From positions 1 through 56,843 of the forward strand of contig CANQGE010000009.1 in assembly GCA_947601495.1 (NCBI GenBank): DNA of 56,843 bases, given 5' to 3'. This DNA is from an uncultured Clostridia bacterium (GTDB lineage Bacteria > Bacillota > Clostridia > TANB77 > CAG-508). This document shows positions 11,943-55,544 of the stretch, piece by piece. How positions within the stretch are numbered: position 1 is the stretch's first letter; every line of letters begins with the position of its first letter. The position numbers were made by a program, and so were the translations under genes. A model generated the notes under the pieces. It was given only the letters and a program-made list of their open reading frames with translations. It was not told the DNA's origin and made no database searches.

Positions 11943-11971
11943 TTGAAAAAAAGGCTTAATTATTATATAAT
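11943..11971 (+). promoter_or_regulatory. Promoter in front of GC-rich island 1
   Basis: TTGAAA (11943-11948), a 17-bp spacer and a perfect TATAAT (11966-11971) sit in AT-rich host-like DNA about 35 bp before the composition changes. Transcription would begin near 11978 and give a leader of about 180 nt before the ATG at 12156. Confidence 0.7.
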
Positions 11972-11977
11972 TAATGT

Positions 11978-12155
11978 AGTGCTATTTTTAAATAGTGCTT
12001 AGAATAAATCTCGGAACAGGACTTGAGAGGAGATGATCTGTTTTTCAACCATTAGCAAGCACGACCGACTAGAAAAGAGAAACGGAGGGGTTAGTAGTAA
12101 AAAAACTTGGTTAAGATTACGTACTCGAACTAGCAAGAAGGGAGAAAGTGACAAA
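11978..12155 (+). other. Long leader of GC-rich island 1
   Basis: About 178 nt between the inferred transcription start and the start codon. It changes from host-like A/T to GC-richer sequence near 12009. It contains the 11-nt motif GCACGACCGAC at 12059-12069, which recurs only in the leader at 55498. An ATG at 12033 (GAGAGGAG just before it) is in frame with the downstream gene and could give an N-terminal extension of 41 residues. No known riboswitch was recognised. Confidence 0.5.
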
Positions 12156-12515
12156 ATGAGCACGGAAGTGATTGTAGCAATAGCTGTTGTCATAACGGCA
12201 ATGGTTACCATGCTGATAACCAAGTGGTACTGCCGGAGGGAATACGAGTATGAGCTGGAAGAGAAGCTCTACTGCGTAAACCATAGGCACAAGATGGAAA
12301 AGGACAAGATGACCTTCGAAAATGGCCTGCTTAAGGATACGATTGAATACCGTACCCAAAAACTGAGCGACAACCTTAATAAAGCGATGCGAAGAAATGG
12401 CACGCTTGCTGAAGAGAATAGAAGGCTAAGGGCAGAACTCGAAGTAATCCAAACGAACCATCCAGAGATTGATGTTAAAGCCGAAGTCTACGACATAGAG
12501 CATCCGCACCTGTAA
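12156..12515 (+). CDS. Small membrane-anchored coiled-coil protein in a GC-rich island
   Basis: 119-aa protein of unknown function. An N-terminal membrane helix (about residues 4-22, VIVAIAVVITAMVTMLI) is followed by a short basic/Cys segment (KWYCRREYEYE) and a long predicted coiled coil (about 30-100), then a short acidic tail. The codons (CTG, ACC, GCC, CGG, AAG) are quite unlike the surrounding genes, which use almost only A/T-ending codons, so the gene looks acquired. The start at 12156 is chosen from GAAGGGAG upstream; 12033 is an alternative. It is flanked by a strong promoter and its own terminator, so it is a self-contained cassette. Confidence 0.75.
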   Translation: MSTEVIVAIAVVITAMVTMLITKWYCRREYEYELEEKLYCVNHRHKMEKDKMTFENGLLKDTIEYRTQKLSDNLNKAMRRNGTLAEENRRLRAELEVIQTNHPEIDVKAEVYDIEHPHL

Positions 12516-12539
12516 GGCTTATTTACGACCTACCCCAAA

Positions 12540-12587
12540 AAACAGATTTCAGGAAACATGAGTTGTTGACTGAAACCTGTTTTTTTG
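12540..12587 (+). terminator. Terminator closing GC-rich island 1
   Basis: AAACAGATTTCAG (12540-12552) pairs with CTGAAACCTGTTT (12570-12582) with one mismatch, followed by a T run. Beyond it the sequence is AT-rich again up to the next gene. Confidence 0.8.
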
Positions 12588-12701
12588 ATATAAATAAATT
12601 GTATAAAAAGTGTTCACAAAAAATTTACAAATATTTAATAATAATTTAATAATTCATATATAATATAAAGGTGCAAATAAAATATAAGAAAGGATGAGTG
12701 A

Positions 12702-13439
12702 ATGAATAAATTAGAAGAAAACTATCCCGCAGATATTGAGCAACATCTTGTGAATGATGAATTAATAGATATAACCAGTGAAACATTTAAAAAAATAATT
12801 TTTCTATATACATCTGCTCTTAAACAGATGAAAACAAAAATAGAAATAATACAAGATGAATTAAAACTTTTTTCAGAATATGAACCTATCGAATATGTGT
12901 CAACAAGAATAAAAAAACCTGAAAATATTATTGAAAAACTAAAAAGAAAAGATTGTGACTTAACATATCAAAACTTATTTGAAAAAGTAAATGACATTGC
13001 TGGAATAAGAATAGTGTGTAATTTTAAAAGCGATGTTTATAAAATTGTGCAAATAATTGAAGATTTTCAAGATATAAGAGTTATAAATAAAAAAGATTAC
13101 ATGAAAAAACCTAAAAAATCTGGTTATATGAGCTATCATTTAATAGTTGAAGTTCCAGTACATCTTTCTTCAAGAATAATGTTCGTAAAAGTAGAAATTC
13201 AAATAAGAACATTAGGAATGGATTTTTGGGCAAGTTTAGAACATAAACTAAAATATAAAAATGCAGATATTTCAAAAAACGAAACTAAAAATTTAATAAA
13301 GTATGCAAAAGTAATTAATAACATAGATGATAATATGCTTACTATTGCGAACGAAATAGAAAAGAGAAATAGTAATATAATATTAGAGTCTGCTGAAAAT
13401 AAAGATGATAAACTAAAAAAACAAAAATTTAATTTATAA
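12702..13439 (+). CDS. relQ: Small alarmone synthetase, RelQ/YjbM type
   Basis: GTP pyrophosphokinase of the RelA/SpoT nucleotidyltransferase superfamily, making (p)ppGpp from ATP and GDP/GTP. At 245 aa it has only the synthetase domain, as in small alarmone synthetases. Motifs: EYVSTRIKKPENIIEKLKRK, NDIAGIRIVCNF (substrate-binding region), KKSGYMSYHLIVEVP, VEIQIRTLGMDFWASLEHKL. The IQIRT.gMDfWASLEHKl block is the hallmark of RelQ. Start is ATG with Shine-Dalgarno GAAAGGATG. It has its own terminator. Its neighbour is a nucleotide-metabolising ADA fusion. Confidence 0.92.
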   Translation: MNKLEENYPADIEQHLVNDELIDITSETFKKIIFLYTSALKQMKTKIEIIQDELKLFSEYEPIEYVSTRIKKPENIIEKLKRKDCDLTYQNLFEKVNDIAGIRIVCNFKSDVYKIVQIIEDFQDIRVINKKDYMKKPKKSGYMSYHLIVEVPVHLSSRIMFVKVEIQIRTLGMDFWASLEHKLKYKNADISKNETKNLIKYAKVINNIDDNMLTIANEIEKRNSNIILESAENKDDKLKKQKFNL

Positions 13440-13440
13440 A

Positions 13441-13470
13441 AAAATCTAGTGCTAAAACTAGATTTTTATT
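13441..13470 (+). terminator. Terminator after relQ
   Basis: AAAATCTAGT (13441-13450) pairs perfectly with ACTAGATTTT (13457-13466), followed by TATT. Confidence 0.75.
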
Positions 13471-13539
13471 CTATTTAAATTTAATTTGAATAAAATAAAT
13501 AAAAATTGCAAAACAGTTTACATAATTTTACAAAAAGTA

Positions 13540-13568
13540 TTGAAATTTACCTACTTATTTGGTATAAT
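13540..13568 (+). promoter_or_regulatory. Promoter for the ADA-SLOG-like gene
   Basis: TTGAAA (13540-13545), a 17-bp spacer and TATAAT (13563-13568) lie 45 bp before the start codon. Confidence 0.75.
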
Positions 13569-13612
13569 ATAGAATTAACTAGGAAATTAAAGAAAGGAGT
13601 TATTATAATAAC

Positions 13613-16132
13613 ATGAAAAACTTAGAATATTTTAATAAATTCTATATAGATAAAGAAAAAGACATTGTAGTTGAATTATATAAAGACAAAAAACAAGATG
13701 AATTAGAATATATTATAAGAACTCCAAATCATAAAAGTGGTAATTTAATAAATAATTTAGCAAAGCTTTGTAATTTAGAGGTTTCAGAAGATGAAAATGG
13801 TTTAAAAATTATAAAAGATAGAATACCAGCATCCATAAATGGAGATAATGAAGATGTTTACATATTTAGACTAGCTGGAATGAAAATAGCAAATATATAT
13901 GAAAATGAAATTGAAGTAAAAGCAAAAATGCCAGCAATAATAAAAACTTTAATGTCACAAACAAAAGACTATAAATTAGATATTAGTAAAACAATTGTAA
14001 AATCATACATATTAAAAAAATCTAAATTTAAAACAGATTTACACACACATATGAATGCTAATTTAACACCTGATGTATTAATTTCTTTAGGAATTGTTCA
14101 TCAAATTAAATATCCACTATATTATATTAAAAAAATAGGTTTGAAATTAACAGAAAAGCAAGAAAAGATTATATTAGAAGAAAGAAAAATTGTTGAAAAA
14201 GAATTTGAAAATTGCGAATTAACTGGTAAATATTTAACTAGAAAAATAGATGATAATACTTTTATTAATTTTGCAGATTTAATTTTAAACAATCTAGAAA
14301 ATGCAGAGAAAAACATATTAAAAATAAGAAACAGTTTAGGTTTATTAAAAGATGGTCAATCAGTTTTCACAAACTTAGAAAAAGTATACTTATATAGATA
14401 TGTATTTTGCAAGCCTAAATTCTCAGAACATAAAATAAAATTAAATTTAAAAACAATTGAAAAAATACCAGAAAAAGATATAGTAAATTATATAAAAAGA
14501 ATATTAGAAGATAAAAAAGAAGGAAGTCCATATAAAAACAATACTTTAAGACAAGACAAATATTTATGGATAGCAAGAGAATATAAAAAACAAAGTATTA
14601 ATTATGCAGAAATTACAGACACAGACTTAGTAAAAGTTGGAGAACCTGCAATAAAATTGCTAGAAGAAGTTCATGAAGTAATGCCTAAAATAGAAAAAGA
14701 AACTGGTGTTGCAATTAGATTATTAGCAGGAATTAGAAGAATACCTCTAACAATTGTAAAAGATCAAAAAACTAATAGTACATATTTAAGAGAAAACTTA
14801 GATGTTTTAAAAGCTATTGCTAAAAGTCCTTATGTTGTTGGAAGTGATTTTATTGGTGAAGAAATTAACGATATAACAGAATTAAAACCAGTAATAAACG
14901 AGCTAGTTCAATATGCTGTAAATGAAGATAAAGGATTTACTATTAGAATACATGCAGGAGAAAATGATTGCTTAAGAGATAATGTAGCAAAATCAATACA
15001 ATGTATTAAAGAATCTTTGAAAAAAGGTCAAAAAATGCCTAAATTTAGATTAGGACATGGGTTATATACAGCAGACTTAAACTCTGAAGAAGGCAAAGAA
15101 TTAATGAAAGAAATGAAAGAAACAGGAGCTGTTCTAGAATTTCAATTAACATCAAATGTTAGATTAAATAATTTAAGCATTTTAGATAGACATCCATTAA
15201 AACAATATCTAGAAAATGGCGTAAAATGTGTTCAAGGAACAGATGGATGTGGAATGTATGGAACAGATACCATAAACGAACAACTTGCACTTCATAATAT
15301 TTTAGGACTTACAGATGACGACTTTCTAAAAATGAGAAAAGTAGAAGATGAAATAATAGAAAATAGTAAAAAATATTTTGCACAAAAATCTAAAAAATTC
15401 AAAGAATTCTTAGCTGGAAGAACTTTAAGAGAAGCAATTCTAGATTTAGAAAATAAAAATCTTGAACAAAGCAAAAACAATTTAATAGATATGAGAATTA
15501 CAAATGATTTAGACTCAGAAACTGAATTAAAAGAAAAAATTAAAAAATTACCTGAAGATAAAATTCCAATTGTAATTGCTGGTGGAAGCTTTAATGCTAA
15601 AAATAGAGAAACTAAAATTGATGAGGCTGGAAGAAAAATAATTGAAAATTTAATCAAAAATTTGAATAATGAAAAAGTATATTTTGTTGTTGGACATAAA
15701 ATGAATGGCTATGAAAAAGCAATAATTGATTATTCAAAAGAATTAAATAAAAAATTTGAAGTTAATGCTATAATTCCTAAAGCTGTTTCAAAAGAAGTAA
15801 AAGATGGATTGCTAAGTGATGACTTAAACGGAGTTTGCATATCAACAGAAAGAGAAGAAATGGGAATATATAAAAGCTTTAATTATGAAATTTTTGAAAG
15901 AAGAAATTCAATAGTTGTTGCATTTGATGGAAATTCACCTGTATCTAATTTAGTTCAAGAAGCTAAAAACGGAAAAGGAAAAGCTAAAATATATGTTAAT
16001 TCAGAAGTTGAAGCCTTAAAAGATAAAGCAAATTCTTTAGGTGGATATGTTAAAGAATTTAAAATAAATGATAATTTAGTTCAAAAAATACTAGAAGACT
16101 ATCCGGAAATTGGAACTAATAAATTAGCATAA
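13613..16132 (+). CDS. Adenosine-deaminase-like protein with C-terminal SLOG-like domain
   Basis: 839-aa protein. An unassigned N-terminal region (1-140) precedes a metal-dependent deaminase TIM barrel with the ADA signatures: the zinc ligands HTH (H144, H146) in TDLHTHMNA, HAGE (H447, E450) in IRIHAGEND, the catalytic His in RLGHGLYT (H482), and an Asp in GTDG (D544). The classic ADA motif is TDD, so the second Asp is Gly here. Long insertions separate the first two motifs. Residues about 650-835 form a Rossmann-like unit (IPIVIAGGSFNAKNRE, KVYFVVGHKMNGYEKA, RRNSIVVAFDGNSP) resembling the SLOG/DprA-LOG superfamily, which binds nucleotides or nucleotide-derived signals. Deamination of an adenine nucleoside or nucleotide is expected from the motifs; the SLOG assignment and any signalling role are inference. 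It has its own promoter and terminator. Confidence 0.82.
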   Translation: MKNLEYFNKFYIDKEKDIVVELYKDKKQDELEYIIRTPNHKSGNLINNLAKLCNLEVSEDENGLKIIKDRIPASINGDNEDVYIFRLAGMKIANIYENEIEVKAKMPAIIKTLMSQTKDYKLDISKTIVKSYILKKSKFKTDLHTHMNANLTPDVLISLGIVHQIKYPLYYIKKIGLKLTEKQEKIILEERKIVEKEFENCELTGKYLTRKIDDNTFINFADLILNNLENAEKNILKIRNSLGLLKDGQSVFTNLEKVYLYRYVFCKPKFSEHKIKLNLKTIEKIPEKDIVNYIKRILEDKKEGSPYKNNTLRQDKYLWIAREYKKQSINYAEITDTDLVKVGEPAIKLLEEVHEVMPKIEKETGVAIRLLAGIRRIPLTIVKDQKTNSTYLRENLDVLKAIAKSPYVVGSDFIGEEINDITELKPVINELVQYAVNEDKGFTIRIHAGENDCLRDNVAKSIQCIKESLKKGQKMPKFRLGHGLYTADLNSEEGKELMKEMKETGAVLEFQLTSNVRLNNLSILDRHPLKQYLENGVKCVQGTDGCGMYGTDTINEQLALHNILGLTDDDFLKMRKVEDEIIENSKKYFAQKSKKFKEFLAGRTLREAILDLENKNLEQSKNNLIDMRITNDLDSETELKEKIKKLPEDKIPIVIAGGSFNAKNRETKIDEAGRKIIENLIKNLNNEKVYFVVGHKMNGYEKAIIDYSKELNKKFEVNAIIPKAVSKEVKDGLLSDDLNGVCISTEREEMGIYKSFNYEIFERRNSIVVAFDGNSPVSNLVQEAKNGKGKAKIYVNSEVEALKDKANSLGGYVKEFKINDNLVQKILEDYPEIGTNKLA

Positions 16133-16154
16133 AAAATAAAATAAAAATATTTTT

Positions 16155-16194
16155 AAGAAAGATTTTTACAAATATGTTAAAATCTTTCTTTTTT
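16155..16194 (+). terminator. Terminator after the ADA-SLOG-like gene
   Basis: AAGAAAGATTTT (16155-16166) pairs perfectly with AAAATCTTTCTT (16179-16190), followed by TTTT. Confidence 0.8.
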
Positions 16195-16273
16195 GTTGAA
16201 TTATTTTTTTATTATTGATAAAATATAAAAAACAAATGAGGTAAAATTTTTATATTTTAAGAAAGGACACAAA

Positions 16274-16945
16274 ATGAGAATAGTTAGAAAGTGTTCAAGT
16301 GAAAATAGTGAAAATAGAAAGAAACTTGAAGAAACATCTAATTATAAAAAAACACTAGAAACTTTAGAAGAAAAAGAAAAAAGAAATTTCTATATTAAAG
16401 CTCAAAATGCTATTAAAAACGCCAAAATTCAAAAATATATGAATGATAGAGAAATAGTAGCAAAAGAGCCTATAAGTTTTTGGGGAGTAATTACTGGAAA
16501 AAATAGTTTGCAACTTCAAAGAATAGAAAATATAAAATTGAAAATTGAGCTTTTAGAAACTCAAAAAATAAAAGAAAAAGCAGAATATGATCCAAAAGAT
16601 ATTTTAGCAGATTTATATTCTTGTGCAATATCAGAACTAAATGGAAAATTTACTAATGAAATGAAAAATATTTATGACGAAGTAAATGAAAAATATTGTG
16701 ATAATTCTGTTTCAGAAGAAAATATTTATAAATTAATTTCAGAAAAAGTGGATAATTCGCAAACATATTTGCCTGTAATTCATAAAGAAACAAAAGGAAT
16801 TTTTGGAGACATAAAGGTTCAAATAGACTTCTTTAAACTAGAAAACAAAAAATTGCAAGACCAAATAATTTTTGAAAGAGGTAAAAGCCAACTTGAAACT
16901 TTTAAACCTAAAATCATACCAGTAACAAAAGTAGTAGCAAATTAA
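16274..16945 (+). CDS. Hypothetical protein, 223 aa
   Basis: No family recognised. Predicted helical and charged, with coiled-coil-like stretches at about residues 20-60 and 85-110, no membrane segment or signal peptide, and few cysteines. A short conserved-looking hydrophobic patch PISFWGVITGKNSLQLQ lies near residue 65. Shine-Dalgarno AAGAAAGGA before ATG. It lies between the ADA fusion terminator and the rpmF promoter, so it is probably transcribed alone. Confidence 0.7.
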   Translation: MRIVRKCSSENSENRKKLEETSNYKKTLETLEEKEKRNFYIKAQNAIKNAKIQKYMNDREIVAKEPISFWGVITGKNSLQLQRIENIKLKIELLETQKIKEKAEYDPKDILADLYSCAISELNGKFTNEMKNIYDEVNEKYCDNSVSEENIYKLISEKVDNSQTYLPVIHKETKGIFGDIKVQIDFFKLENKKLQDQIIFERGKSQLETFKPKIIPVTKVVAN

Positions 16946-16976
16946 CAAAAACTAAATGTTAGAGAGTAAAAAATGC

Positions 16977-17005
16977 TTGACAAATGCTATAATTGGTTGT
17001 ATACT
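16977..17005 (+). promoter_or_regulatory. Strong promoter for rpmF
   Basis: Perfect TTGACA (16977-16982), a 17-bp spacer and TATACT (17000-17005). This is one of the closest matches to the consensus in the window, as expected for a ribosomal protein gene. The leader to the ATG is about 65 nt. Confidence 0.85.
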
Positions 17006-17075
17006 ATTTAGGTAACTGTAACGAATAAGTTTTATTTTGACATAGATATAAAGTCGCTAAAGGAGGGATTTTAAA

Positions 17076-17258
17076 ATGGCACAACCAAAAAGAAGATGGT
17101 CAAAAGCTAGAACAGGTTTAAAAAGATCAACATGGAAAATAGAAGCTGAAAATTTATCTACTTGCTCACATTGCCACCAACCAGTTAGACCTCACACAGT
17201 ATGTTCTAACTGCGGTTATTATGATGGAAAAGAAGTAATAGCAAAAAAAGCTGAATAA
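17076..17258 (+). CDS. rpmF: 50S ribosomal protein bL32
   Basis: 60-aa large-subunit protein. The N-terminus MAQPKRRWSKARTGLKRS is typical of L32, and the zinc ribbon is intact with CSHC and CSNC pairs. A strong AAAGGAGGG ribosome site precedes ATG. The DUF177 (YceD) gene that normally precedes rpmF in Firmicutes is not adjacent; instead an unknown 223-aa gene and a dedicated promoter lie upstream. It is followed by a perfect terminator. Confidence 0.97.
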   Translation: MAQPKRRWSKARTGLKRSTWKIEAENLSTCSHCHQPVRPHTVCSNCGYYDGKEVIAKKAE

Positions 17259-17267
17259 TTATAATTT

Positions 17268-17299
17268 ATAAAAAAAGACATAGCAATATGTCTTTTTTT
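17268..17299 (+). terminator. Terminator after rpmF
   Basis: AAAAAAGACATA (17271-17282), loop GCAA, then TATGTCTTTTTTT (17287-17299): a compact perfect hairpin with a GNRA-like loop. Confidence 0.88.
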
Positions 17300-17300
17300 G

Positions 17301-17329
17301 TTGATAATAAAAAGTTAAAATGATATAAT
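17301..17329 (+). promoter_or_regulatory. Promoter for the dCMP deaminase operon
   Basis: TTGATA (17301-17306), a 17-bp spacer and TATAAT (17324-17329), directly after the rpmF terminator and 21 bp before the start codon. Confidence 0.7.
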
Positions 17330-17349
17330 CCGTAAAAGGAGATAAGTAT

Positions 17350-17844
17350 ATGGAAGAAAGAATTGATAAACAAAACTACTATTTAGATATAGCAGAAACA
17401 GTTGCATCAAGATCTACTTGTTTAAGAAAAAAATATGGAACAGTAATTGTAAATCAAGATCAAATAATATCAACAGGTTATTCTGGAGCTCCAAGAGGTA
17501 GAATAAATTGTTCTGATTTAGGATACTGTACAAAAAAGAAATTGTTACCAGATCAAAGACATGGAGGATATGATGCTTGCAGATCTGTTCATAGTGAACA
17601 AAATGCAATTATAAGTGCATCAAGAGAGCAAATGATAGGTTCAACTTTATATTTAGCTGGTTATAGAACTGAAAATCATGAATATGAAGAAGGTGCAGCT
17701 CCTTGTTTGATGTGCAGAAAATTAATTATTAATGCTGGAATTGAGAAAGTAATAGTTCGTGAAAATAAAACAAACTACAAAGTTTATGATGTAAAAGAAT
17801 GGATTGAAAACGATGAATTTTTAAATGGACAATTAAGCTATTAG
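17350..17844 (+). CDS. dCMP deaminase (ComEB family)
   Basis: 164-aa zinc-dependent cytidine/deoxycytidylate deaminase, converting dCMP to dUMP for thymidylate synthesis. Zinc and catalytic motifs: VHSEQNAI (usual HAE; here HSE, with catalytic Glu) and APCLMCRKLIINAG (PCxxC). The upstream segment RSTCLRKKYGTVIV and GYSGAPRG match the dCMP deaminase layout, and extra Cys residues (NCSDLGYC, YDACRS) are typical of the second metal or structural site in this family. Starts at ATG after AAAGGAG. It lies 22 bp upstream of the next membrane protein. Confidence 0.9.
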   Translation: MEERIDKQNYYLDIAETVASRSTCLRKKYGTVIVNQDQIISTGYSGAPRGRINCSDLGYCTKKKLLPDQRHGGYDACRSVHSEQNAIISASREQMIGSTLYLAGYRTENHEYEEGAAPCLMCRKLIINAGIEKVIVRENKTNYKVYDVKEWIENDEFLNGQLSY

Positions 17845-17866
17845 TGAGTAAAGAGGTATTTATAAA

Positions 17867-19534
17867 TTGAAAGAGAAAATTTTGAAAAATAGAAAATTAA
17901 TCGATACAGCTATTATTTTTTTAGTAGCGTGTATTTTATCTATAATATTATTAAAACCAAATTTAGATGTATATTATGATGATGGAGTTCAACATATTGG
18001 AAGAGCTTTTGGTACACTTGCAAGTATAAAACAAAATGGACTTTTTCCAAATGTTATTTCAAATTTTGCAAACAATTTTGGATATTCATGGAATTTATTT
18101 TATGGACCATTATCTGCATATGGTGTAATTGTTTGTGCTTTAATTTTTAGAAATTTTATAACAGGTTATAAAATATTTTGTTTTATATGCTTAATTTTAT
18201 CTGGAATATTTATGTATAAATTTGCTTCTAAATTAATAAACAATAATAATGCAGCACTTTTAGCATCAATAATTTATCTTACATTTCCATACCATTTAAC
18301 AGATTTATACACTAGAAATGCTTTAGGCGAATTTGTTTCATTTGTTTTTATACCATTAGTATTTTTAGGATTATATAATTTATTTTATACTGAAGATAAC
18401 CATTATTATATTTCTATTGGAGCAATAGGATTAATTCTTACACATAATATATCAACACTTCTAGTTGCAATTTTTTCATTGTTCTATGTAATTTTTAATT
18501 TAGAAAAAATAAAAGAAAGTAGAATAAAGAAAGGACTAATTATAAATATTGTTTTTATTATATTAGTTACTAGTTTCTTCTGGGTTCCTTTATTAGAAAC
18601 AAAGCTATATGCAAACTATCGAGTATATGAAAATGAAGCTATGTCTACTTCAGAAGAAGCAGCTTCACATGGCTTAAAATTGAAACAACTATTTGTAACA
18701 CAAAAAGATGGCTCATATATATTTGAACTAGGACCACACATAATAATATTATTAGCTTTCTCAGTAATGACAATTAGACAAATAAGCTCTGAACTAAGAG
18801 AAAATTATATTATATTTTTATTTTGTTCTTTAATTACATTATGGATGTCTACAAAATATTTTCCTTGGAAATTTTTACCTGATGGAATGAGCATAATACA
18901 ATTTCCTTGGAGAATGCTTATGTTTTCATCATTTTTCTTAAGCTTAGTTTGTGCAATTAACGTATACACTATAGTTAAAAAGTTTAATTATAAGGATGTT
19001 TTAGTTATTTCAATAATAGCTATAGGATATACATTAGCAATATTTATGTCTTATGTTCCAACAAGCGAAAATATTGCAAATATTGACCAAATAAATTTAG
19101 GAAATTTTTCTGGTAAAGAACATGAAACTGTTGCAGGTGCTGGAAAGGGAGAATACCTTCCATCAAATGCTTATAAAGATAGATTTTATGTGGCAACTAA
19201 AGAAGATGTAACAACTGTATTAGAAGGAAAAGCAATAATAGAAAATGAAACAAAAGATGGTTCAAACTTAAAAGCAAATGTTAAAACATTAGATGCAGAA
19301 TATACAATATTTGAATTACCATATTTGTATTATCCTGGATATGAAGTAAGACTAGATGGAATGATTGCTGAAACTTTTGAAACGAAAAATGGTTTTCTAG
19401 GATTCGCAATGGGACCAGAAGATAATATTGAACTTTCAGTTAAATATACAGGTACTTCAAGTATGAAATACTCATTATTAGCTTCAGTAGTTTCTTGCAT
19501 TGCTTTAGGAATTTATATTTGGAAAAAGCACTAA
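17867..19534 (+). CDS. Polytopic membrane protein, GT-C-like
   Basis: 555-aa integral membrane protein with about 10-12 predicted helices and a C-terminal extracytoplasmic domain of about 120 residues (from about 400) before a last membrane helix. After the first helix, the loop VYYDDGVQHIGRAFG carries a DD pair in the position of the catalytic acid in GT-C glycosyltransferases. The overall sequence resembles the membrane proteins annotated as 6-pyruvoyl-tetrahydropterin-synthase-related or YfhO-like. A role in transfer of sugars from lipid carriers to surface polymers is inferred. TTG start, chosen from Shine-Dalgarno AAGAGGT. Confidence 0.75.
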   Translation: MKEKILKNRKLIDTAIIFLVACILSIILLKPNLDVYYDDGVQHIGRAFGTLASIKQNGLFPNVISNFANNFGYSWNLFYGPLSAYGVIVCALIFRNFITGYKIFCFICLILSGIFMYKFASKLINNNNAALLASIIYLTFPYHLTDLYTRNALGEFVSFVFIPLVFLGLYNLFYTEDNHYYISIGAIGLILTHNISTLLVAIFSLFYVIFNLEKIKESRIKKGLIINIVFIILVTSFFWVPLLETKLYANYRVYENEAMSTSEEAASHGLKLKQLFVTQKDGSYIFELGPHIIILLAFSVMTIRQISSELRENYIIFLFCSLITLWMSTKYFPWKFLPDGMSIIQFPWRMLMFSSFFLSLVCAINVYTIVKKFNYKDVLVISIIAIGYTLAIFMSYVPTSENIANIDQINLGNFSGKEHETVAGAGKGEYLPSNAYKDRFYVATKEDVTTVLEGKAIIENETKDGSNLKANVKTLDAEYTIFELPYLYYPGYEVRLDGMIAETFETKNGFLGFAMGPEDNIELSVKYTGTSSMKYSLLASVVSCIALGIYIWKKH

Positions 19535-19569
19535 AGATTTTGAATAATAGATAAATATGGAGGATTAAG

Positions 19570-20895: not shown

Positions 20896-20909
20896 GGACT
20901 AATTTTAAC

Positions 20910-24883: not shown

Positions 24884-24886
24884 TAA

Positions 24887-36519: not shown

Positions 36520-36768
36520 ATTCTCTTAACGTATTATATATCTTTTATAAATGACTTGCTGTCGCAATCAAAGATTGCTCCAATCGCCTTTCGCTTCGCT
36601 CCAGTTGGTCGCTGCGTGCTATTTTATTAAAAAATTTCTCTTAACGTATTATATATCTTTTATAAATGACTTGCTGTCGCAATCAAAGATTGCTCCAATC
36701 GCCTTTCGCTTCGCTACAGTTGGTCGCTGCGCGTCATTTTAAAAAGATATATAATACATTAAGAGAAT
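36520..36768. repeat. MITE-like palindromic repeat, copy 3 (two tandem core units)
   Basis: The same element as at 28.5 kb in the opposite orientation: ATTCTCTTAACGTATTATAT (from 36520) and ATATAATACATTAAGAGAAT (to 36768) as terminal inverted repeats, with two core units at a period of 115 bp. The cores read GACTTGCTGTCGCAATC-AAA-GATTGCTCCAATCGCC..., then a GTTGGTCGCTGCG block. No transposase or other protein is encoded. It occupies most of the 394-bp gap after asnB; the rest (36769-36899) is AT-rich and holds the next promoter. Confidence 0.9.
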
Positions 36769-44566: not shown

Positions 44567-44591
44567 TTATATATACAAAGGAGAGATTAAA

Positions 44592-45284: not shown

Positions 45285-45307
45285 AACATATTTAAAAGGG
45301 GAATTTT

Positions 45308-46954: not shown

Positions 46955-46966
46955 GGAGAAAATAAA

Positions 46967-47218
46967 TTGGATAGTAACTACACTTTTGAAATGTTTTGGG
47001 AAGATCTTGATAATGGTTATAAAATATATTACACATATATGAATTGTAGATATTTAATGTATAAATTAAATAAAAATTGCTACAAAAATGAACTAGTAAA
47101 TGCACCAGAGAAATGTCCTCATCAAAAAAATGCAATATATACATTAAAAAGAGTAAAAGAATTATATCCTTTTATGGAAAATTTAGAATATGATACAGGA
47201 TTAAATAACATTATTTAA
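46967..47218 (+). CDS. Hypothetical protein, 83 aa
   Basis: Small soluble protein starting at TTG after ATAAGGAG, 12 bp after the DUF2142 gene and 16 bp before ruvB. Aromatic-rich ([20 protein letters not shown]) with a Cys/His segment [15 protein letters not shown]. No family recognised. The tight spacing and ribosome site support it as a real gene. Confidence 0.65.
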
Positions 47219-47234
47219 ATATAATGGAGGTAAA

Positions 47235-48233
47235 ATGGAGGAAAATATACTAAATCCTAATTTAATAGAAGATGAAGATTATTCAGAAGTTTCCTTAAGA
47301 CCTAAGAAATTAAGTGAATATATAGGGCAAACAAAAGTAAAAGAAAGCATGAAAATATATATAGAGGCTGCTAAAAAAAGAAAAGAATCTTTAGACCATG
47401 TTCTTTTATATGGCCCACCAGGACTTGGAAAAACCACACTTTCTAATATTATAGCAAATGAATTAGGAAGTAATATAAAAATAACATCAGGACCTGCAAT
47501 AGAAAGACCGGGAGATTTAGCTGCACTTCTTACAAATCTTTCAGAAAATGATGTTTTATTTATAGATGAAATACATAGACTAAATAAAAATATTGAGGAA
47601 ATTCTATATCCAGCATTAGAAGACTTTTGCTTGGACATTATTATTGGAAAAGGACCAACAGCAAAATCTATAAGATTAGACTTACCAAAATTTACTTTAA
47701 TAGGAGCAACAACAAGAGTAGGGTCACTTTCTGCTCCATTAAGAGACAGATTCGGAATTGTTGAAAAATTAGAATTATATTCTGTAAAAGATTTAACAAC
47801 AATAATTGAAAGATCTAGTAACATATTAGAAATAAAAATAGAAAAAGATGCAGCAAAAGAATTAGCAAAACGTTCTAGAGGAACTCCAAGAATTGCAAAT
47901 AGATTATTAAAACGTATTAGAGATTATGCTATGGTTTTAGGAGATGGAACATTAACACTAAATGTTACTAAAATGGCTTTAGAAAAGCTAGATATAGACG
48001 ATTTAGGACTAGATAATGTAGATAGAAAAATTCTAGAAACTATAATATATAAATATTCAGGAAAGCCTGTTGGAATAGAAACATTAGCTGCAACATTAAA
48101 TGAAGAAGTAACAACTATAGAAGATGTATATGAACCATATTTAATGCAAATAGGCTTTTTGGCAAGAACTCCAAAAGGAAGAGTTGTAACAGCATCTGGA
48201 TATGAGCATTTAGGATTAGACTACTTAAAATAA
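47235..48233 (+). CDS. ruvB: Holliday junction branch-migration ATPase RuvB
   Basis: 332-aa AAA+ motor that drives branch migration with RuvA. Walker [18 protein letters not shown], Walker [11 protein letters not shown], sensor [19 protein letters not shown], and the C-terminal winged helix ([16 protein letters not shown]...[13 protein letters not shown]). The N-terminal [12 protein letters not shown] is typical. ruvA, usually adjacent, is not in the window. Shine-Dalgarno AATGGAGG. Confidence 0.97.
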
Positions 48234-48322
48234 TTTTTATTAGTGGCTTATAGATAGCCTCACAAAAATCTAAATATATCATACAAGGAGTAGGTTAGTT
48301 AAAATAAACTAGCAAAGAAAAA

Positions 48323-49894
48323 ATGAAAAAGGTAATAATAATTGGTGCTGGACCTGCAGGACTAACAGCAGGTTACGAACTTTTAAAAAACAAAGATGAA
48401 TATGATGTTACAATTTTAGAAGAGTCACAAGATATAGGTGGAATTTCTAAAACTGTAAAATATAATGGAAACAGAATGGATATAGGAGGGCATAGATTTT
48501 TTTCTAAAGATTCTAGAGTTATGGATTTTTGGAAAGAATTAATGCCTATTCAAGGAGAAAATTCTTTTGATGATGAAAAATTAGGAAGAGAAAAACCATT
48601 AGAAAAAGGTGGACCAAATCCAGAAAAAGAAGATACTGTTATGCTTGTAAGAACTAGAGTATCAAGAATTTATTATCTTAAGAAATTTTTTGATTACCCT
48701 ATTAGCTTAAAATTACAAACTTTTACTAATATGGGATTAATAAGAACAATAAAAGCAGGCTTTAGCTATTTAAAAACAATATTTGTTAAAAAGAAGGAAG
48801 ATTCTCTAGAAAATTTTTACATAAATCGTTTTGGAAAAGTTTTATATAGTATGTTTTTTGAAAAATATACAGAAAAATTATGGGGAAGACATCCAAGCGA
48901 AATTTCAGCAGACTGGGGAGCTCAGAGAGTTAAAGGGTTATCTATAAAAGCAGTTATAAAAGACGCTTTTTCAAAAGTATTTGGTGGAAATAAAAATAAA
49001 AAAGATGTTGAAACATCTTTAATAGAACAATTTTGGTATCCTAAATATGGACCAGGACAACTTTGGGAAACATTAGCAAGTAAAATAGAAGAAAACGGTG
49101 GAAAAATAAAAAAAGGATATTCTGTTAAAAATATAAACATTAAAAATAATTCTGTAAAATCAGTTGAATGTTTAGTAAATGGAAAAACAGAAACTATTAA
49201 AGGAGATATTTTTATTTCTTCAATGCCAGTTAAAGATTTAGTAGTAGGCTTTAAAAATGAAAAAGTACCTGAAGACATTTTAAATATTGCAAAAGGACTT
49301 CCTTATGTAGATTTTCAAACTGTTGGTGTATTAGTTAATAAATTAAAATTGAAAAATAAAACAAAAATGAAAACTTTAGGAAACATTGTTCCAGACTGCT
49401 GGATTTACGTTCAAGAACCAGAAGTAAAAATGTTAAGACTTCAAATTTTCAATAACTGGTCACCTTACTTAGTTAAAGATGCAGAAAATACAGTATGGAT
49501 TGGTTTGGAATATACTTGTGAAGAAGGCGACAAATACTGGAATATGGAAGATAAAGAATTTTCAGAGTTTGCAATTAGTGAACTTGCAAGTATAGGAATA
49601 ATAGATAAAGAAGATGTTTTAGATTTTCATAGAGAAAAAATTAAAAAAGCTTATCCAGCTTATTTTGATACCTATGAACACATCGATAAACTTATAGAGT
49701 ATTTAAACAAATTTAATAATTTATACTGTGTAGGTAGAAACGGACAACACAGATATAATAATATGGACCATTCTATGGCAACTTCTTTTGAAGCAGTAAA
49801 AAATATAAAAGAAAATATTATGTCAAAAGATAATATATGGAATGTAAACACAGATAAAGAATATCATGAAGTTAAAACAGAAAGTAATGCTTAG
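48323..49894 (+). CDS. FAD-dependent oxidoreductase, UDP-galactopyranose-mutase/amine-oxidase-like
   Basis: 523-aa flavoprotein: N-terminal FAD-binding [18 protein letters not shown] followed by [22 protein letters not shown], the pattern of protoporphyrinogen-oxidase-like and Glf-like proteins found in surface polysaccharide loci. Conserved [20 protein letters not shown] lies near residue 190, and a C-terminal FAD segment ([18 protein letters not shown]) resembles the UDP-galactopyranose mutase end. Substrate not provable from sequence. It starts a group with the following membrane proteins. ATG is inferred from AAAGAAAAA upstream; the ribosome site is weak. Confidence 0.85.
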
Positions 49895-49938
49895 CATTTA
49901 AAATGCTTATCACAAAATAAATATAAAAGGAATCACTT

Positions 49939-51958
49939 ATGAAAAAGTATTCAAAAATTTTAATAATATTAATTATAGCCTTATTTTTAGAAGTAATTGT
50001 TTTTAACATTACTTCTTATCGTTTATTATTCGGAAAATATGAAGAAAAAACTTTTGTAAATCCAGAATTTGTAAATTATAGGAATGAAAAAGCAATTTTA
50101 AAAATAAAAAATTTGAATCAAAAAATAGGAACTGTAAAATTAGAATTAAAAAATTTTGATGAAACAACAGAATATCAAGTGTCTTATTCAGATGAAACAA
50201 GCGATGATTTTAGAAGTGTAAATTCAAAATTTTATGTTCAAAATTATGAAAAATCAAAATATGTTCCGCTATATTTATCTGGAAATACAAAAGAAATTAT
50301 GATTTCAGTAGATAAAAGCATTTATGATGAAAATAAAATAGATAAAGTTATAATAAATTCTAAAATACCATTTGAATTTAACATAGTTAGGTTTATATCA
50401 GTTTTTCTATTTATGTTATTTATATATTCTGCAAAAAATGAAAAACTATTTAGTGAACCTTATTCAAAAAAGAATTTTAAGCATGAGATAATTCTATTAG
50501 CAATATTATTAATTTTTATGATACTTTTATCTGAAATAAATTCATATTCTACTGAAGAATATGATTTAGAAGGGGATACAAGCTTTGCAAAATTTTTAAA
50601 TACAGAAGGTGGAATCTATAATAAAGACTTTGTAGAATCTGTAAAGGAAGGAAAATTTTATCTTTTAAATGGTCCAGATGAAAAACTACTAAACTTAGAA
50701 AATCCTTATGACAATATAACAAGGGATAAAACAGTTACAAGAGACGTAGATTATAATTGGGATACAGCTTTTTATAAAGGTCATGAATATATTTATTTTG
50801 GAATATTACCATTATTATTAACATTTCTACCATATAATTTAATATTTCATAAATACTTAAAAATTTCGATAGTTGTGTTTATTTTCTCAATTTTTATATT
50901 TATTTTACTAAAAGAAATACTTTTAAAAATACTTTCAAAGTATTTTGATAATATTCCTTTTAAAATTGTAGCCTATGCTTTAATCGCATTTTGCTCAGGA
51001 ACGCTAATTCTTTATGCAAATGGTATGTCTAGAGTTTATGAACTTGTTATAATTGTGCGGATTATACTTTGTTTTACAAGGAATTTATTTTATTTTAAAA
51101 TCAGCAGAAAGTGATAATAGAAAATATTTTAACATATTTTTAGGCTCACTTTTCTTAGCACTATCTGTTGCATGTAGACCTACAGACCTACTTGCATCAC
51201 TATTAATTGTTCCATATCTTACAAAATTATTAATAGAAAATATTAAAGAATTTAAACAAAATAAAACAAAATTATTTAAGCTAATTTTTGCTGTAGGATT
51301 ACCTTATATAACAGTTGGAATTTTGCTTATGTATTATAACTATATAAGATTTGAAAATCCATTCGATTTTGGAGCAAAATATCAACTTACTATAACAAAT
51401 CTTTATAATCTAAAAGGTAGATTTTATGTTATACCAGTGGGATTAATTACTAATTTATTTGGAATACCAAACTTTACATTAGATTTTCCATTTATGGTTA
51501 ATAATGGAAACATCCCAGTATTTTATGGATATTACTATGTAGAAGCTATGCTTGGAGGATTATTTATTCTAGCACCAATATGCTTTTTAACATTTTTTAT
51601 AGGAAAAGCAAATAAAAAATGTGAGAAAAAGGAATTAAAAATAATAATTAATTCTCTTATAATTGTAGGGCTAATAATAACAATTATAAGTATAATGATG
51701 GCTGGAAGTAATGAAAGATACTTAATAGATTATGCTTGGATGTTTATTTTAGCAGGAATTTTAATTTTCTGCATTATATATAATAGCTTGAAATCAGAAG
51801 AAGCAAAAAAAATTTTGCAATATATTTTTACGGTTACTGCAATTTATATGTTCTTTATTTCAATTATAACCGGAATTGTTTCAGAAAAAAGCTATTTAAA
51901 AGAGCATTCACCAGATACATATTATAAAACAAAATACACAGTATGTTTCTGGGAATAA
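49939..51958 (+). pseudogene. Polytopic membrane protein (GT-C-like) with a single-base frameshift
   Basis: The first frame (49939-51114) gives an N-terminal helix, an extracytoplasmic beta-rich domain (about 30-135) and several membrane helices. It then reads ...ELVIIVRIILCFTRN and soon stops. A +1 frame overlapping from about 51053 continues naturally (CGLYFVLQGIYFILKSAE) with the remaining helices up to 51958. The join needs one base to be skipped near 51045-51056. Joined, it is one protein of about 670 aa, close in style to the neighbouring sugar-transfer membrane proteins. Either a true disruption or a sequence error; no slippery motif typical of programmed shifts is evident. Confidence 0.75.
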
Positions 51959-51972
51959 GGAAGGAAATGAAA

Positions 51973-52542
51973 ATGAAATTATTAATGCATACTTGTTGCG
52001 CACCATGTAGTGTATATTGCATAGATTCTTTAAGAAAAGAAGAAATTGAACCAACATTATATTGGTTTAATCCAAATATACATCCATACATAGAATATAA
52101 AACAAGAAGAGACACTTTAATAGAATATTCAAAAATGATAAATGCAAAACTTATTATAAATGAAAATTATGGTTTAAAAGACTTTTGTAAAAATGTAGTA
52201 GATGATTTAGAAAATAGATGTGTAAATTATTGCTATAAAGTCCGTTTAGAAGAAACTGCAAAATATGCAAAAGAAAATGGCTTTGATACATTTACTACAA
52301 CTCTTTTAGTAAGTCCATATCAAAAACATGATGAAATAAAATCATTATGTGAAAATTTAGCTAAAAAATATGAGATTGAATTTTTATATAGGGACTTTAG
52401 AGTAGGCTTTAGAGAAGGACAAGCAAAAGCAAGAGAAATAGGCTTATATATGCAAAAATATTGTGGTTGTATTTTTTCTGAGGAAGATAGATACCAAAAG
52501 CAAATTGAGAAAGATAACTTAAAGACGATCAGTACACAATAA
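51973..52542 (+). CDS. queH: Epoxyqueuosine reductase QueH
   Basis: 189-aa DUF208 family enzyme performing the last step of queuosine synthesis in tRNA. Conserved cysteines bind the iron-sulfur and metal centre: HTCCAPCS at the N-terminus, CVNYCYKVRLEETA, and YCGCIFSEEDRY near the end. These and FNPNIHPYIEY and TTLLVSPYQKHD are characteristic. Of three nearby ATGs, 51973 has the best spacing to AAGGAAGG. Unrelated in function to the surrounding surface genes. Confidence 0.94.
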   Translation: MKLLMHTCCAPCSVYCIDSLRKEEIEPTLYWFNPNIHPYIEYKTRRDTLIEYSKMINAKLIINENYGLKDFCKNVVDDLENRCVNYCYKVRLEETAKYAKENGFDTFTTTLLVSPYQKHDEIKSLCENLAKKYEIEFLYRDFRVGFREGQAKAREIGLYMQKYCGCIFSEEDRYQKQIEKDNLKTISTQ

Positions 52543-52567
52543 AAATGGGGGTAATTAGGTTATTAAA

Positions 52568-53938
52568 ATGGCTTATGTAAAAAAATATTGGTGGAAAATA
52601 TTAATAATAATTGTATTTACAATGTTATTATTACTTTTGGCAAATAACCATGAACATTGGAGTGATGAAGCGCAATCTTTCCTTATAGCAAGAGATAACA
52701 GCTTTCAAGAAATTATGTATTGGATAAAATATGAAGGAACTCCACCACTATGGGTACTTATAATAAAATGTTTTTTAATATTAGGTGGAACATATGAAAC
52801 TTTTTATTTATTACCTATAATATTTTCTGCTATAGGAGTATTAATTTTAGAACTTAAAATAAAAGCGCCGTGGTATATAAAACTACTATTTCCATTTTCA
52901 TATTTTATTTTTTATCAATATAGTATTATAGCCAGAAGTTATAGCTTAGTATTTCCATTGCTTATGCTTATATTAGTTATATATGATAAAAGACTGAACA
53001 ATTCTTTTTTATATGCGATAATTTTGTTTTTCTTTATGAATATAAGTTTACATACTTTAATTATTGCAGGTTCATTATATCTATTATTTTTAATAGATGT
53101 ATACAAGGATAATGAATTTAAAAATAAGAGAAATTTAATTGCTTGTATTTTGATTTTTTTCGAATTTTTAATAACAGTGATTTTAACATTACCAAATCCA
53201 GACTGTGTATTTATGAAAAATGGTGGCAGTACACTATTTCACATAATTTCAGAAGCAACAGTAGGAGATGATTCCAACATAATCTTAGAAATTATAATAA
53301 CGTTTTTTATGATTGGAATAATTATCTTTAAAAATAAAGAAAATAAAATAAACAATTTAATAAGACTTCTAATATTATTTTTACCAGTACTTATGGTATA
53401 TTTGTTTATTACATATCAAGTATGGCATGTAGGAATAATATTCATTTTGATATTTTTCTATTTTACTGTTGATGATAGTATAAATACGAATAAGTTAGTA
53501 AAAATTGTTTTTAGTGTTATTTTGATAGTACAAATTTATTGGTCATTTTGTTCTTTATGCTTTGATTATCTATATAAATATTCGGCATCAAAAGATGTAG
53601 CAGAGTTTTTAATTGAAAACAATTATGATGATAGACCAATATGTGGAATGGGATATAGCATAACAGCAATACAGCCATATTTTAATAAAAACATATTTGC
53701 AAATCGAAATTCAGATAAGTCTTTCTATTTTTGGAAAGAAAATAATGGATATGACATTACTATGAAAACAGATTATGATATATATATAATATCTAACTTT
53801 TACAGCTGTAACTATGAAGAAGAAATTAAGTGGTTAGAAGAAAATAATTATGTAAAAATAGATTTTAATGGATATACATATAAAAAGAATAAAATTTATG
53901 AACCAGAAGGATATTACATGTATATTAGAAAAAAATAA
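52568..53938 (+). CDS. GT-C-type membrane glycosyltransferase-like protein
   Basis: 456-aa polytopic membrane protein (about 9-10 helices). After the first helix the loop NNHEHWSDEAQSFLIARDNS and YEGTPPLWVLII form a motif seen in many dolichyl/undecaprenyl-phosphate-sugar-using transferases; the DE pair is the likely catalytic acid. A periplasmic-type C-terminal domain (about 350-456) follows the last helix. Acceptor unknown. ATG preceded by a poor ribosome site (GGGGGTAATTAGG further upstream). Confidence 0.8.
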   Translation: MAYVKKYWWKILIIIVFTMLLLLLANNHEHWSDEAQSFLIARDNSFQEIMYWIKYEGTPPLWVLIIKCFLILGGTYETFYLLPIIFSAIGVLILELKIKAPWYIKLLFPFSYFIFYQYSIIARSYSLVFPLLMLILVIYDKRLNNSFLYAIILFFFMNISLHTLIIAGSLYLLFLIDVYKDNEFKNKRNLIACILIFFEFLITVILTLPNPDCVFMKNGGSTLFHIISEATVGDDSNIILEIIITFFMIGIIIFKNKENKINNLIRLLILFLPVLMVYLFITYQVWHVGIIFILIFFYFTVDDSINTNKLVKIVFSVILIVQIYWSFCSLCFDYLYKYSASKDVAEFLIENNYDDRPICGMGYSITAIQPYFNKNIFANRNSDKSFYFWKENNGYDITMKTDYDIYIISNFYSCNYEEEIKWLEENNYVKIDFNGYTYKKNKIYEPEGYYMYIRKK

Positions 53939-53953
53939 TAGGTGGAGAATATT

Positions 53954-55000
53954 ATGAATGAAGAAGAAAACGAAAGATTAGAAAATTTAAAAAAATTTTT
54001 TGATAGTGATGAGCTAATAAAACAAACTCTTATAGACATAGATCCTAGTGAAAAGGACGACTATAATTCCGAAAGTAGAATTAGCTATATGGATAGAATG
54101 TTTAAAGAATTAAAAAGCATGGAATTTGAATTTCTATCTATGTGCAGAAATTTTGGAATAAATCCTGACTTAATAAAAGAAAAATTTGCTCAAATAACTG
54201 AAAAATTGACAAATTTTAATTATTCTATTGGTGGTATTAGAAAATTATATAAAGAAAATTTTACAGATTTGGATCCTCAATTGTTTGATAGAGTCGAAAG
54301 AAATTTCTTTACAGATAAAGAATCCCTGGATGAAGCAGATTTAAGGGGATTAACTCAACAATCTAAAACTATAAATGAGCTGTTGCATGTTTTTCATTCT
54401 TATGTAACTTATAATAAAGAAAATCTAAGATCTTTGCCAGTTATAGATAAAAAAGAGCATGGACCAAACGCTTCTATAACACTGTATGGAGAAGAAACTG
54501 AACTTGCAAAAAAGATATTTGAAAGCTTTCCTGAAGAGTTACTTACAGGTAATACAGAAATATTTGGAATAAGAAATAAAGTAATAATGGTGATAAAAGG
54601 CAGAGGAAAAGAACTTTTATTAGATGTAAGTAAATTTAATGATTTTTATGCTACTAAATATTTCTTTCCTGGATTAGATGGTATAGTAAGTGCATCTCAA
54701 ATACGTGAATTTGGTAAATTTGATGGAAATGGTATTACTGGAGTATTTGATTCTAATGAAGAACAAGTTGTTCAAGATTTATTTAAATTTATAGAAAGGG
54801 TACCATTAGATAGAGAACTTGTGCCAGAAAGTAAAAAAGGTAAAAAGTTTTCTGCTGGGGAATTAGAAAGCGATATTGTAAGAAAAAAAGGAAAAGAAGG
54901 AAGAAAAGCATCTGGAATAATTAAAATGTTGGAATTAGTGAGAGCTGTTAATAAAAAGCATGATAAAACACAAGTAGATGAAAAAGATCCTGAAAAATAA
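53954..55000 (+). CDS. Hypothetical protein, 348 aa
   Basis: Unrecognised, soluble and acidic. Residues 1-145 are helical (possible coiled coil); the middle has alternating strands and helices (ASITLYGEETELAKKIFESF, NKVIMVIKGRGKELLLDV, ATKYFFPGLDGIVSASQIRE), suggesting an alpha/beta domain; the C-terminus is Lys-rich. The ATG at 53954 follows GGTGGAG; the GTG 12 bp upstream overlaps that site. It precedes a 102-aa gene by 13 bp, forming a pair. Confidence 0.75.
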   Translation: MNEEENERLENLKKFFDSDELIKQTLIDIDPSEKDDYNSESRISYMDRMFKELKSMEFEFLSMCRNFGINPDLIKEKFAQITEKLTNFNYSIGGIRKLYKENFTDLDPQLFDRVERNFFTDKESLDEADLRGLTQQSKTINELLHVFHSYVTYNKENLRSLPVIDKKEHGPNASITLYGEETELAKKIFESFPEELLTGNTEIFGIRNKVIMVIKGRGKELLLDVSKFNDFYATKYFFPGLDGIVSASQIREFGKFDGNGITGVFDSNEEQVVQDLFKFIERVPLDRELVPESKKGKKFSAGELESDIVRKKGKEGRKASGIIKMLELVRAVNKKHDKTQVDEKDPEK

Positions 55001-55013
55001 AGGAGAAAAAAAG

Positions 55014-55322
55014 ATGAAAAATAAGATAGATGTAAGTAATATAGCAAAAGAAACTATTGAAGTATTAAATTATTTTGACGAAGAATTTATTTCTAAAATA
55101 TCAAAAAATTTTTTAAATAATTTATATGAACTTTCTAAAAATTCAAACATAAGTGTAACTATAGATGAAAATAAAAATCTTAAAGATCAAAATATTTCAG
55201 AGGAATGTAAAGATCTGTTGTCTGTACTATATTATAGATATATTGCAACGGAGACAGAAAAAATGGACATTATAGAAATTTGGAAAAGCAATGATATTTT
55301 ATATAAAAATGCTGACGAATAA
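55014..55322 (+). CDS. Hypothetical protein, 102 aa
   Basis: Small acidic helical protein (MKNKIDVSNIAKETIEVLN; SEECKDLLSVLYYRYIATET). No family recognised. The ATG at 55014 is chosen from AAAGGAG upstream; an in-frame earlier ATG lies inside the preceding gene. Pairs with the 348-aa gene and ends before a strong hairpin terminator. Confidence 0.7.
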   Translation: MKNKIDVSNIAKETIEVLNYFDEEFISKISKNFLNNLYELSKNSNISVTIDENKNLKDQNISEECKDLLSVLYYRYIATETEKMDIIEIWKSNDILYKNADE

Positions 55323-55350
55323 TTATAAAAATAGTAAAAATAATGTGTAG

Positions 55351-55399
55351 AAAAGTGTCAATTTTTAAGTAATATTAACGAATTGACACTTTTTAATTT
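55351..55399 (+). terminator. Terminator after the hypothetical pair
   Basis: AAAAGTGTCAATT (55351-55363) pairs perfectly with AATTGACACTTTT (55381-55393) and is followed by TAATTTTT. The 3' arm also supplies the -35 box of the next promoter. Confidence 0.8.
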
Positions 55400-55411
55400 T
55401 TATTGTATACT
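55383..55411 (+). promoter_or_regulatory. Promoter in front of GC-rich island 2
   Basis: Perfect TTGACA (55383-55388), a 17-bp spacer and TATACT (55406-55411). The -35 box lies in the 3' arm of the preceding terminator. Transcription would begin near 55418. Confidence 0.75.
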
Positions 55412-55417
55412 TGTTTA

Positions 55418-55544
55418 TGTAAAGCCTTGCTTTACATTACTACTAATGCACAAACTAGTGCAATGGAAAGGGGGTTAATTTTGTTACTTTAAGGTATGCA
55501 CGACCGACGGAAAACAAGTTGTTTAGATTAGGGAGGAACTCAAG
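55418..55544 (+). other. Leader of GC-rich island 2
   Basis: About 127 nt. Two small hairpins (GTAAAG-CCTTG-CTTTAC, then TGCAC-AAACTA-GTGCA) come first, then AAAGGGGG, then the 11-nt motif GCACGACCGAC at 55498-55508, also present in the leader at 12059. The composition turns GC-rich from about 55490. A GGGAGGA ribosome site closes the leader. No known riboswitch recognised. Confidence 0.5.

Follow-up and report, generated by a model that had tools for sequence, protein, structure and literature searches.

Within the very AT-rich genome (25% GC) of an uncultured Clostridia bacterium we find a discrete class of GC-rich genes, which makes up about 2% of the open reading frames (ORFs) of at least 100 amino acids and has a GC content at third codon positions (GC3) of 0.40-0.82. 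Two members lie on a stretch of 56,843 nucleotides, the whole of which is called the window here: a gene for a 119-amino-acid protein (gene 1) and a gene for an FAD-dependent oxidoreductase (the FAD gene). That they belong to a genome-wide class is invisible from the window alone. Their leaders share an 11-mer, GCACGACCGAC, whose core, CGACCGAC, is enriched on the sense strand of some class units in two species; in both, the link between motif, promoter and GC-rich gene is real. We infer, with a confidence that stops a little short of even, that selection holds the GC content of these units at the RNA level, perhaps for mRNA stability; both the selection and the benefit are read from sequence.

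The GC-rich class

The host draft genome, G000 (1.67 Mb in 32 contigs, 72.7% complete; the window is its contig C9), was compared with a sister species, G016, and with further genomes of the genus, including G066 and G019; the genus set comprises 53 genomes, the host's included. The survey covered 856,843 bases of G000 and 437,565 of G016. Among 644 G000 ORFs of at least 100 amino acids, GC3 has a median of 0.126 and a 95th percentile of 0.182, but reaches 0.45 at the 98th percentile and 0.821 at its maximum; the 362 ORFs of G016 behave alike (0.118, 0.171, 0.456 and 0.66, respectively). Candidates were the 33 ORFs that reached 0.40 in GC3 and 0.36 in GC. Eight were removed by eye as mechanical (antisense or mostly AT-rich), although one of these, G016 C3:12924, may contain a real gene; the 25 that were kept are 15 from G000 and 10 from G016. 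Extrapolation from 16 units in 857 kb of the 1.67 Mb gives roughly 30 class genes in the whole of G000. The original prediction had considered gene 1 and the FAD gene to be the only GC-rich genes of the window. These two (12156-12515, and 55545 up to the contig end) are indeed the clearly GC-rich ones, but a further GC island is present at 36541-36750 (GC 0.39); it holds only a 63-amino-acid ORF, taken as mechanical.

Class genes use codons, including CTC, CTG and CGG, that are nearly absent from background genes. Their products include an FAD oxidoreductase, an adenylosuccinate synthetase, and GNAT and HNH proteins; Pfam matches were found neither for gene 1 nor for any of ten further class orphans. 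An additional locus encodes a SleB-like cell-wall hydrolase and two proteins without a Pfam match. Seven of ten class proteins match PHROGs phage families (E of 0.01 or less), most strongly PurA and the HNH protein, although such families are also cellular. When nine class proteins were compared with defense models, the HNH protein alone matched, weakly. No relatives of protein P0001 were found in viral and plasmid collections, and none of the orphan with a GC3 of 0.82 in viral and phage collections. The adenylosuccinate synthetase at G000:C2:151863-153215 and its relatives form a GC-rich subfamily of about 450 amino acids; a second copy, of canonical type, is also found in some genomes of the genus (e.g. 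G023, G067 and G070). GC3 outliers occur elsewhere in the genus as well: G066 has five such ORFs in 120 kb (of these, L174:19068 looks mechanical), G028 six in 80 kb, G061 one in 80 kb, and G019 one, the FAD gene, in 100 kb; the G026 sample is mostly N. Among the matches listed from the open-licence literature, there is no earlier report of such a class.

Transcript architecture and the shared motif

Promoter candidates, counted from a score of 9 in a scheme that gives a 17-bp spacer +0.5, precede 23 of the 25 class ORFs. The spacer is 17 bp in 20 of these 23, and the median score is 12.5; for 396 background candidates it is 10. In class units (23 of 25) the initial 36 nucleotides fold with a median minimum free energy of -6.3 kcal/mol, in the background candidates with one of -1.2 kcal/mol (p 5e-11). 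The 5' hairpin also stands out against shuffled sequences (shuffle-z, p 3e-4), although strong 5' folding is not universal in the class. Terminator-like hairpins, defined by a rule made for this analysis as a hairpin before a T-run, follow 19 of the 24 ORFs that are not truncated by a contig end.

Transcript ends are predicted throughout, with the start placed downstream of the -10 box. Upstream of the predicted start, mean GC is 0.13-0.26 across 140 bases; it is 0.38 in the 20 bases that open the transcript and then climbs to as much as 0.48. Behind the stop codon it keeps to 0.39-0.47 over 60 bases, and from base 80 onward it is 0.14-0.16 (profiles of 23 and 24 units, respectively). Background genes with promoters scoring at least 12 (n = 33) have a GC of 0.25-0.32 after the start. 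The GC-rich tract therefore approximately coincides with the predicted RNA, untranslated regions (UTRs) included. A strong promoter alone was rejected as the cause of the GC content, since these 33 strongly promoted background genes are not GC-rich. Across 17 of 26 FAD loci that were scored, GC3 correlates with promoter score (rho 0.64) and with 5' folding (rho -0.58), a comparison that takes loci without control for relatedness and includes probably misplaced promoters in G061 and G031, both of which lessen its weight.

The two window units comprise the following features.

11943-11971, + strand: near-consensus promoter of gene 1, TTGAAA (11943-11948) and TATAAT (11966-11971), 17-bp spacer; 11 of 12 positions, score 11.5
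11978-11999, + strand: predicted 5'-terminal hairpin of the gene 1 RNA, start site inferred; similar hairpin in G016
12059-12069, + strand: GCACGACCGAC in the gene 1 leader, exact
12156-12515, + strand: gene 1, 119-amino-acid protein with hydrophobic N-terminus, GC3 0.56, no Pfam family
12540-12587, + strand: putative intrinsic terminator of gene 1, an inverted repeat followed by a T-run, from the sequence and our hairpin/T-run rule; similar in G016
55383-55411, + strand: near-consensus promoter of the FAD gene, TTGACA (55383-55388) and TATACT (55406-55411), 17-bp spacer; 11 of 12 positions, score 12.5
55418-55466, + strand: FAD leader, 5' end: a pair of predicted hairpins, with similar ones in G016, G066 and G019
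55498-55508, + strand: GCACGACCGAC in the FAD leader, exact
55545-56843, + strand: FAD-dependent oxidoreductase, truncated by the contig end, GC 0.52, GC3 0.65

Two near-consensus promoters with 17-bp spacers, followed by the same 11-mer 93 and 92 bases past the start of the -10 box, had been predicted and were confirmed, the 11-mer beginning at 12059 and 55498. These are its only window copies at up to one mismatch, and none of 100 dinucleotide shuffles gave two or more (mean 0.00). The 11-mer is kept in the orthologous leaders of G016, exactly for gene 1 and at 10 of 11 positions for the FAD gene (GCACGACCAAC); it is absent from the FAD leaders of G066 and G019. The genome-wide search that the original prediction proposed found no third exact copy in the 72.7% complete draft of G000, which has two one-mismatch sites, but it did find four more copies of the core, all in GC-rich units.

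In total, CGACCGAC occurs six times in G000 and three times in G016, and all nine copies are on the sense strand of class units, which ties the motif core to GC-rich genes. Without the two founding window copies, G000 keeps four and G016 three; the gene 1 ortholog accounts for one of the three. For 26 units of the two species (including one host unit, at C3:83 kb on the minus strand, that was read by eye), the nine sense copies compare with 0.18 expected from shuffles, and the absence of antisense copies with 0.15 expected. The 92/93-base spacing did not prove to be a general rule. Other copies lie at other distances in leaders, inside coding sequence, or in a 3' UTR, where the core is conserved behind an orthologous 60-amino-acid gene. 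Six of the 16 G000 units carry CGACCGAC; it is found in 20 of the 53 genus genomes, its setting being known for G000 and G016, and is missing in G066 and G019.

In the window, an Rfam 15 scan, leaders included, gave no matches at gathering score, and a tRNA scan was empty. The gene 1 terminator was missed by a stricter terminator scan, for which its loop is too long. For the FAD protein, every NCBIfam match among the matches listed falls below cut-off; the assembly breaks within this GC-rich gene. By eye, the open frame of gene 1 reaches back upstream across the motif in G000 (12033-12158), and the corresponding G016 leader has a 13-codon frame ending directly after the motif.

Residence and change of the GC-rich units

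Both flanks of 8 of the 16 G000 units align in the sampled G016 stretches. All eight slots are GC-rich in both species, although the contents of some no longer align. An ortholog of the SleB-like hydrolase is kept in one slot in four species, with GC3 of 0.60 in G000, 0.54 in G016, 0.37 in G066 and 0.29 in G019.

SleB-like hydrolase slot: G000:C6 66.2-68.8 kb; G016:C7 75.3-78.3 kb; G066:C1 27-29 kb; G019:C2 28.7-30.5 kb

Comparable units look resident. The original prediction had suggested that the motif might mark a common site of capture or insertion, or be recognized by an unknown acquisition mechanism; with eight of eight comparable slots GC-rich in G016 and the FAD gene present in 29 of 53 genomes, G000 included, a capture or cassette system is not supported, although gene 1 does not occupy its slot in G019 and G066. 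The suggested integron-like system fared no better, as the integron integrase model TIGR02249 was over its cut-off in neither the 72.7% complete G000 nor G016, which gave only weaker matches, as did all 14 controls (no attC search was made).

The hydrolase slot, which adjoins a MutS2-like gene (named by eye), is GC-rich to a varying degree in the four species. A VPFSNGE-repeat protein of variable repeat number lies beside the hydrolase in three of the four, and the slot companions are only partly shared. At G000:C6 39.8-40.0 kb and G016:C7 48.3-48.8 kb, minus-strand GC-rich genes in matching places are wholly different, and their terminators look alike. A 159-amino-acid class orphan (G000:C6 9792-10271; G016:C7 22826-23305) is 100% identical in protein sequence between the two species, far above other class pairs.

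Identity at four-fold degenerate sites between G000 and G016 is 89.6% for background genes and 65.9% for the class. Sites that are G or C in G000 are still G or C in G016 at 157 of 244 class sites, against 317 of 777 in the background. For the FAD gene the corresponding counts are 48 of 93 against 3 of 22 in G066, and 29 of 90 against 5 of 37 in G019, although the small background counts for these outgroups temper the comparison. GC retention in the FAD gene appears to exceed that of the background. Under pure decay, the ancestor of the G000 copy would have needed a GC content at four-fold sites (GC4) of 1.03 (0.98-1.08) by the G016 clock, or of 2.0 (1.4-4.7) by the pooled outgroups. The direction of substitution was taken from polarized synonymous third-position changes, with many sites unresolved. 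On the G000 branch, weak-to-strong (A/T to G/C) changes outnumber the reverse by 16 to 9 with G066 as outgroup, 24 to 4 with G019, and 7 to 3 where both agree. In a midpoint-rooted tree of 27 FAD sequences from the genus (one of them distant) plus Sedimentibacter, a single clade of 11 sequences (GC3 0.21-0.65) contains the eight highest GC3 values, with 0.26 as the highest value outside it; support is 0.89 and 0.91 for the two halves of this clade, with no value given for the whole.

TA across codon junctions is at 0.62 of the synonymous-shuffle expectation in 30 class sequences and at 0.91 in 300 background genes, and class coding RNA is more structured than its synonymous shuffles (mean z -1.57, n = 25) compared with the background (-0.75, n = 40). 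GATC is strongly avoided in background genes (448 against 929 expected in 400 genes of G000 and G016) and in the class (44 against 73 expected), which suggests restriction pressure. A sequence-specific RNase acting through word avoidance was rejected, as only AU-type words (TATA, TTAA) were found, with no other clear candidate, and GATC avoidance is host-wide.

Explanations and known systems

Typically, a unit combines a strong promoter of its own with a 5' RNA hairpin, a GC-rich body that includes the UTRs, and a terminator-like hairpin. Selection on the RNA would maintain the GC content of such units, and the likeliest benefit would be resistance to decay: 5' hairpins may hinder decay that depends on the 5' end, and GC-rich transcript bodies poor in the dinucleotide UpA would present fewer AU-rich endonuclease sites. 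An excerpt of PMC7509114 describes RNase Y cleavage as R/W close to AU-rich sequence, and lists both structure and 5' stem-loops as stabilizing. Computed support comes from the class itself, its promoters and hairpins, the GC steps at predicted ends, the avoidance of UpA, and the persistence in place of comparable units. It is possible, though we think it doubtful, that the class is a privileged set of mRNAs kept apart by composition, GC-rich, hairpin-capped and UpA-poor in the face of AT mutation, and sorted by a decay or translation pathway.

Several results weigh against selection on the RNA. Placing the start after the AT-rich -10 box sharpens the GC step, and the transcript ends are predictions; 5 of the 24 ORFs lack a terminator-like hairpin by the same rule. 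An upstream Shine-Dalgarno-like stabilizer was not significant, the Shine-Dalgarno-like 6-mers in the two window leaders being no better than shuffles. Evolution of the class is fast, as it also would be under relaxed constraint or replacement, and other codon-junction dinucleotides differ from the host as well, as they might in foreign DNA. The GC level is not set by the species, since GC3 is 0.15 for the FAD gene and 0.48 for the hydrolase in G018, and 0.12 for the FAD gene and 0.45 for PurA in G065; mixed levels inside these two genomes and G022 contradict a species-wide GC factor. By the G016 clock, 12% of draws put the ancestral GC4 at no more than 1, which makes pure decay possible; decay fits the FAD copies of G016 and G019 and is borderline for that of G066. 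On the G016 branch, weak-to-strong changes are the rarer kind with single outgroups (11 against 19 with G066, 15 against 16 with G019; 9 against 8 where both agree). Finally, gene 1 is present in 2 of the 53 genomes, G000 and G016. It was gained or lost, because its slot in G019 and G066 holds another, AT-rich gene (NUDIX-like by eye); in G031 the slot holds a different, moderately GC-rich gene.

The alternative that survives best, which we rate as unlikely though far from negligible, is that these are ordinary foreign genes from GC-richer donors, with strong local promoters and slow amelioration to AT, perhaps with repeated allele replacement. The codons CTC, CTG and CGG, the many orphans, and a dinucleotide signature unlike that of the host would be expected of such genes, and among four-fold FAD differences the G016 copy is more AT than the G000 copy by 44 to 11. 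Because the G016 clock permits decay, two species have no gene 1 in its slot, and several class proteins match phage families, the foreign origin gains and the RNA-level explanation loses strength. Set against a foreign origin are the eight shared GC-rich slots and the hydrolase in place in four species, GC retention above background with a G000 FAD level that is hard to reach by decay, the confinement of the highest FAD GC3 values to one clade, the GATC avoidance common to class and host, and the lack of relatives of P0001 and of the most GC-rich orphan in the collections named above.

Two further explanations seem to us improbable, and to a similar degree. In the first, GC-biased gene conversion, the units would be recombination hotspots, perhaps marked by CGACCGAC, in which GC and substitution rate rise jointly. 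The coupling of fast evolution with GC enrichment agrees with this, and the process has been proposed for bacteria, as an excerpt of PMC4450053 indicates; however, the GC steps lie near predicted transcript ends with no spill into the flanks, most G000 units lack the motif, as do G066 and G019, and avoidance of UpA is not predicted. In the second, CGACCGAC would be the target of an RNA-binding protein or trans-acting RNA that controls class transcripts. The sense-strand excess and the conservation of the core in orthologous leaders and one 3' UTR are what a regulon would produce, but the position of the motif varies, it is confined to a minority of G000 units, and no perfect complement was found outside class units in draft G000. 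Its unpaired probability of 0.32-0.81 in six leaders led us to reject the motif as an always-exposed loop. Sharing of the 11-mer by chance is highly improbable: the exact 11-mer has only two genome copies and many possible 11-mers could draw a reader's eye, but the independent CGACCGAC copies, four further ones in G000, all sense in class units, together with conservation in G016, disfavor coincidence.

Genes with deviant GC are routinely put down to foreign DNA. In this genome about 2% of ORFs deviate strongly, yet the comparable ones look resident, and their GC bounds lie near predicted transcript ends. If this is confirmed, it would be a warning against composition-based transfer calls in AT-rich genomes, and the forces that may keep GC in bacterial genes could be told apart in a natural test.

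Phage morons and single-gene genomic islets consist of a single gene with its own promoter and terminator and a deviant composition. The units described here have the same single-gene build; they differ in that comparable units occupy the same slots in sister species and that a prophage context was not seen. Another close system, besides STAB-SD, is the mRNA stabilizer type of the Bacillus subtilis aprE leader, which combines a 5' stem-loop with ribosome binding. The likeness lies in the strong promoter and the hairpin near the predicted RNA 5' end, and the leaders of gene 1 and the FAD gene each have a predicted 5'-terminal stem-loop as in the aprE type. Here, however, about 30 unrelated genes would be involved, GC richness extends over the entire transcript, and the Shine-Dalgarno-like part is not significant. 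Such 5' stem-loop stabilizers are known to us through titles cited in excerpts of PMC3997798 and PMC7509114. An excerpt of PMC4478552 describes, for a GC-rich species, selection that raises the G+C of bacterial genes independently of codon usage; as here, GC is favored against AT mutation, but the class makes up about 2% of the ORFs of a 25% GC genome and is bounded near predicted transcript ends. With bacterial GC-biased gene conversion, as far as an excerpt of PMC4450053 describes it, the units share a rise of GC with fast evolution, whereas their bounds follow predicted transcripts rather than recombination tracts.

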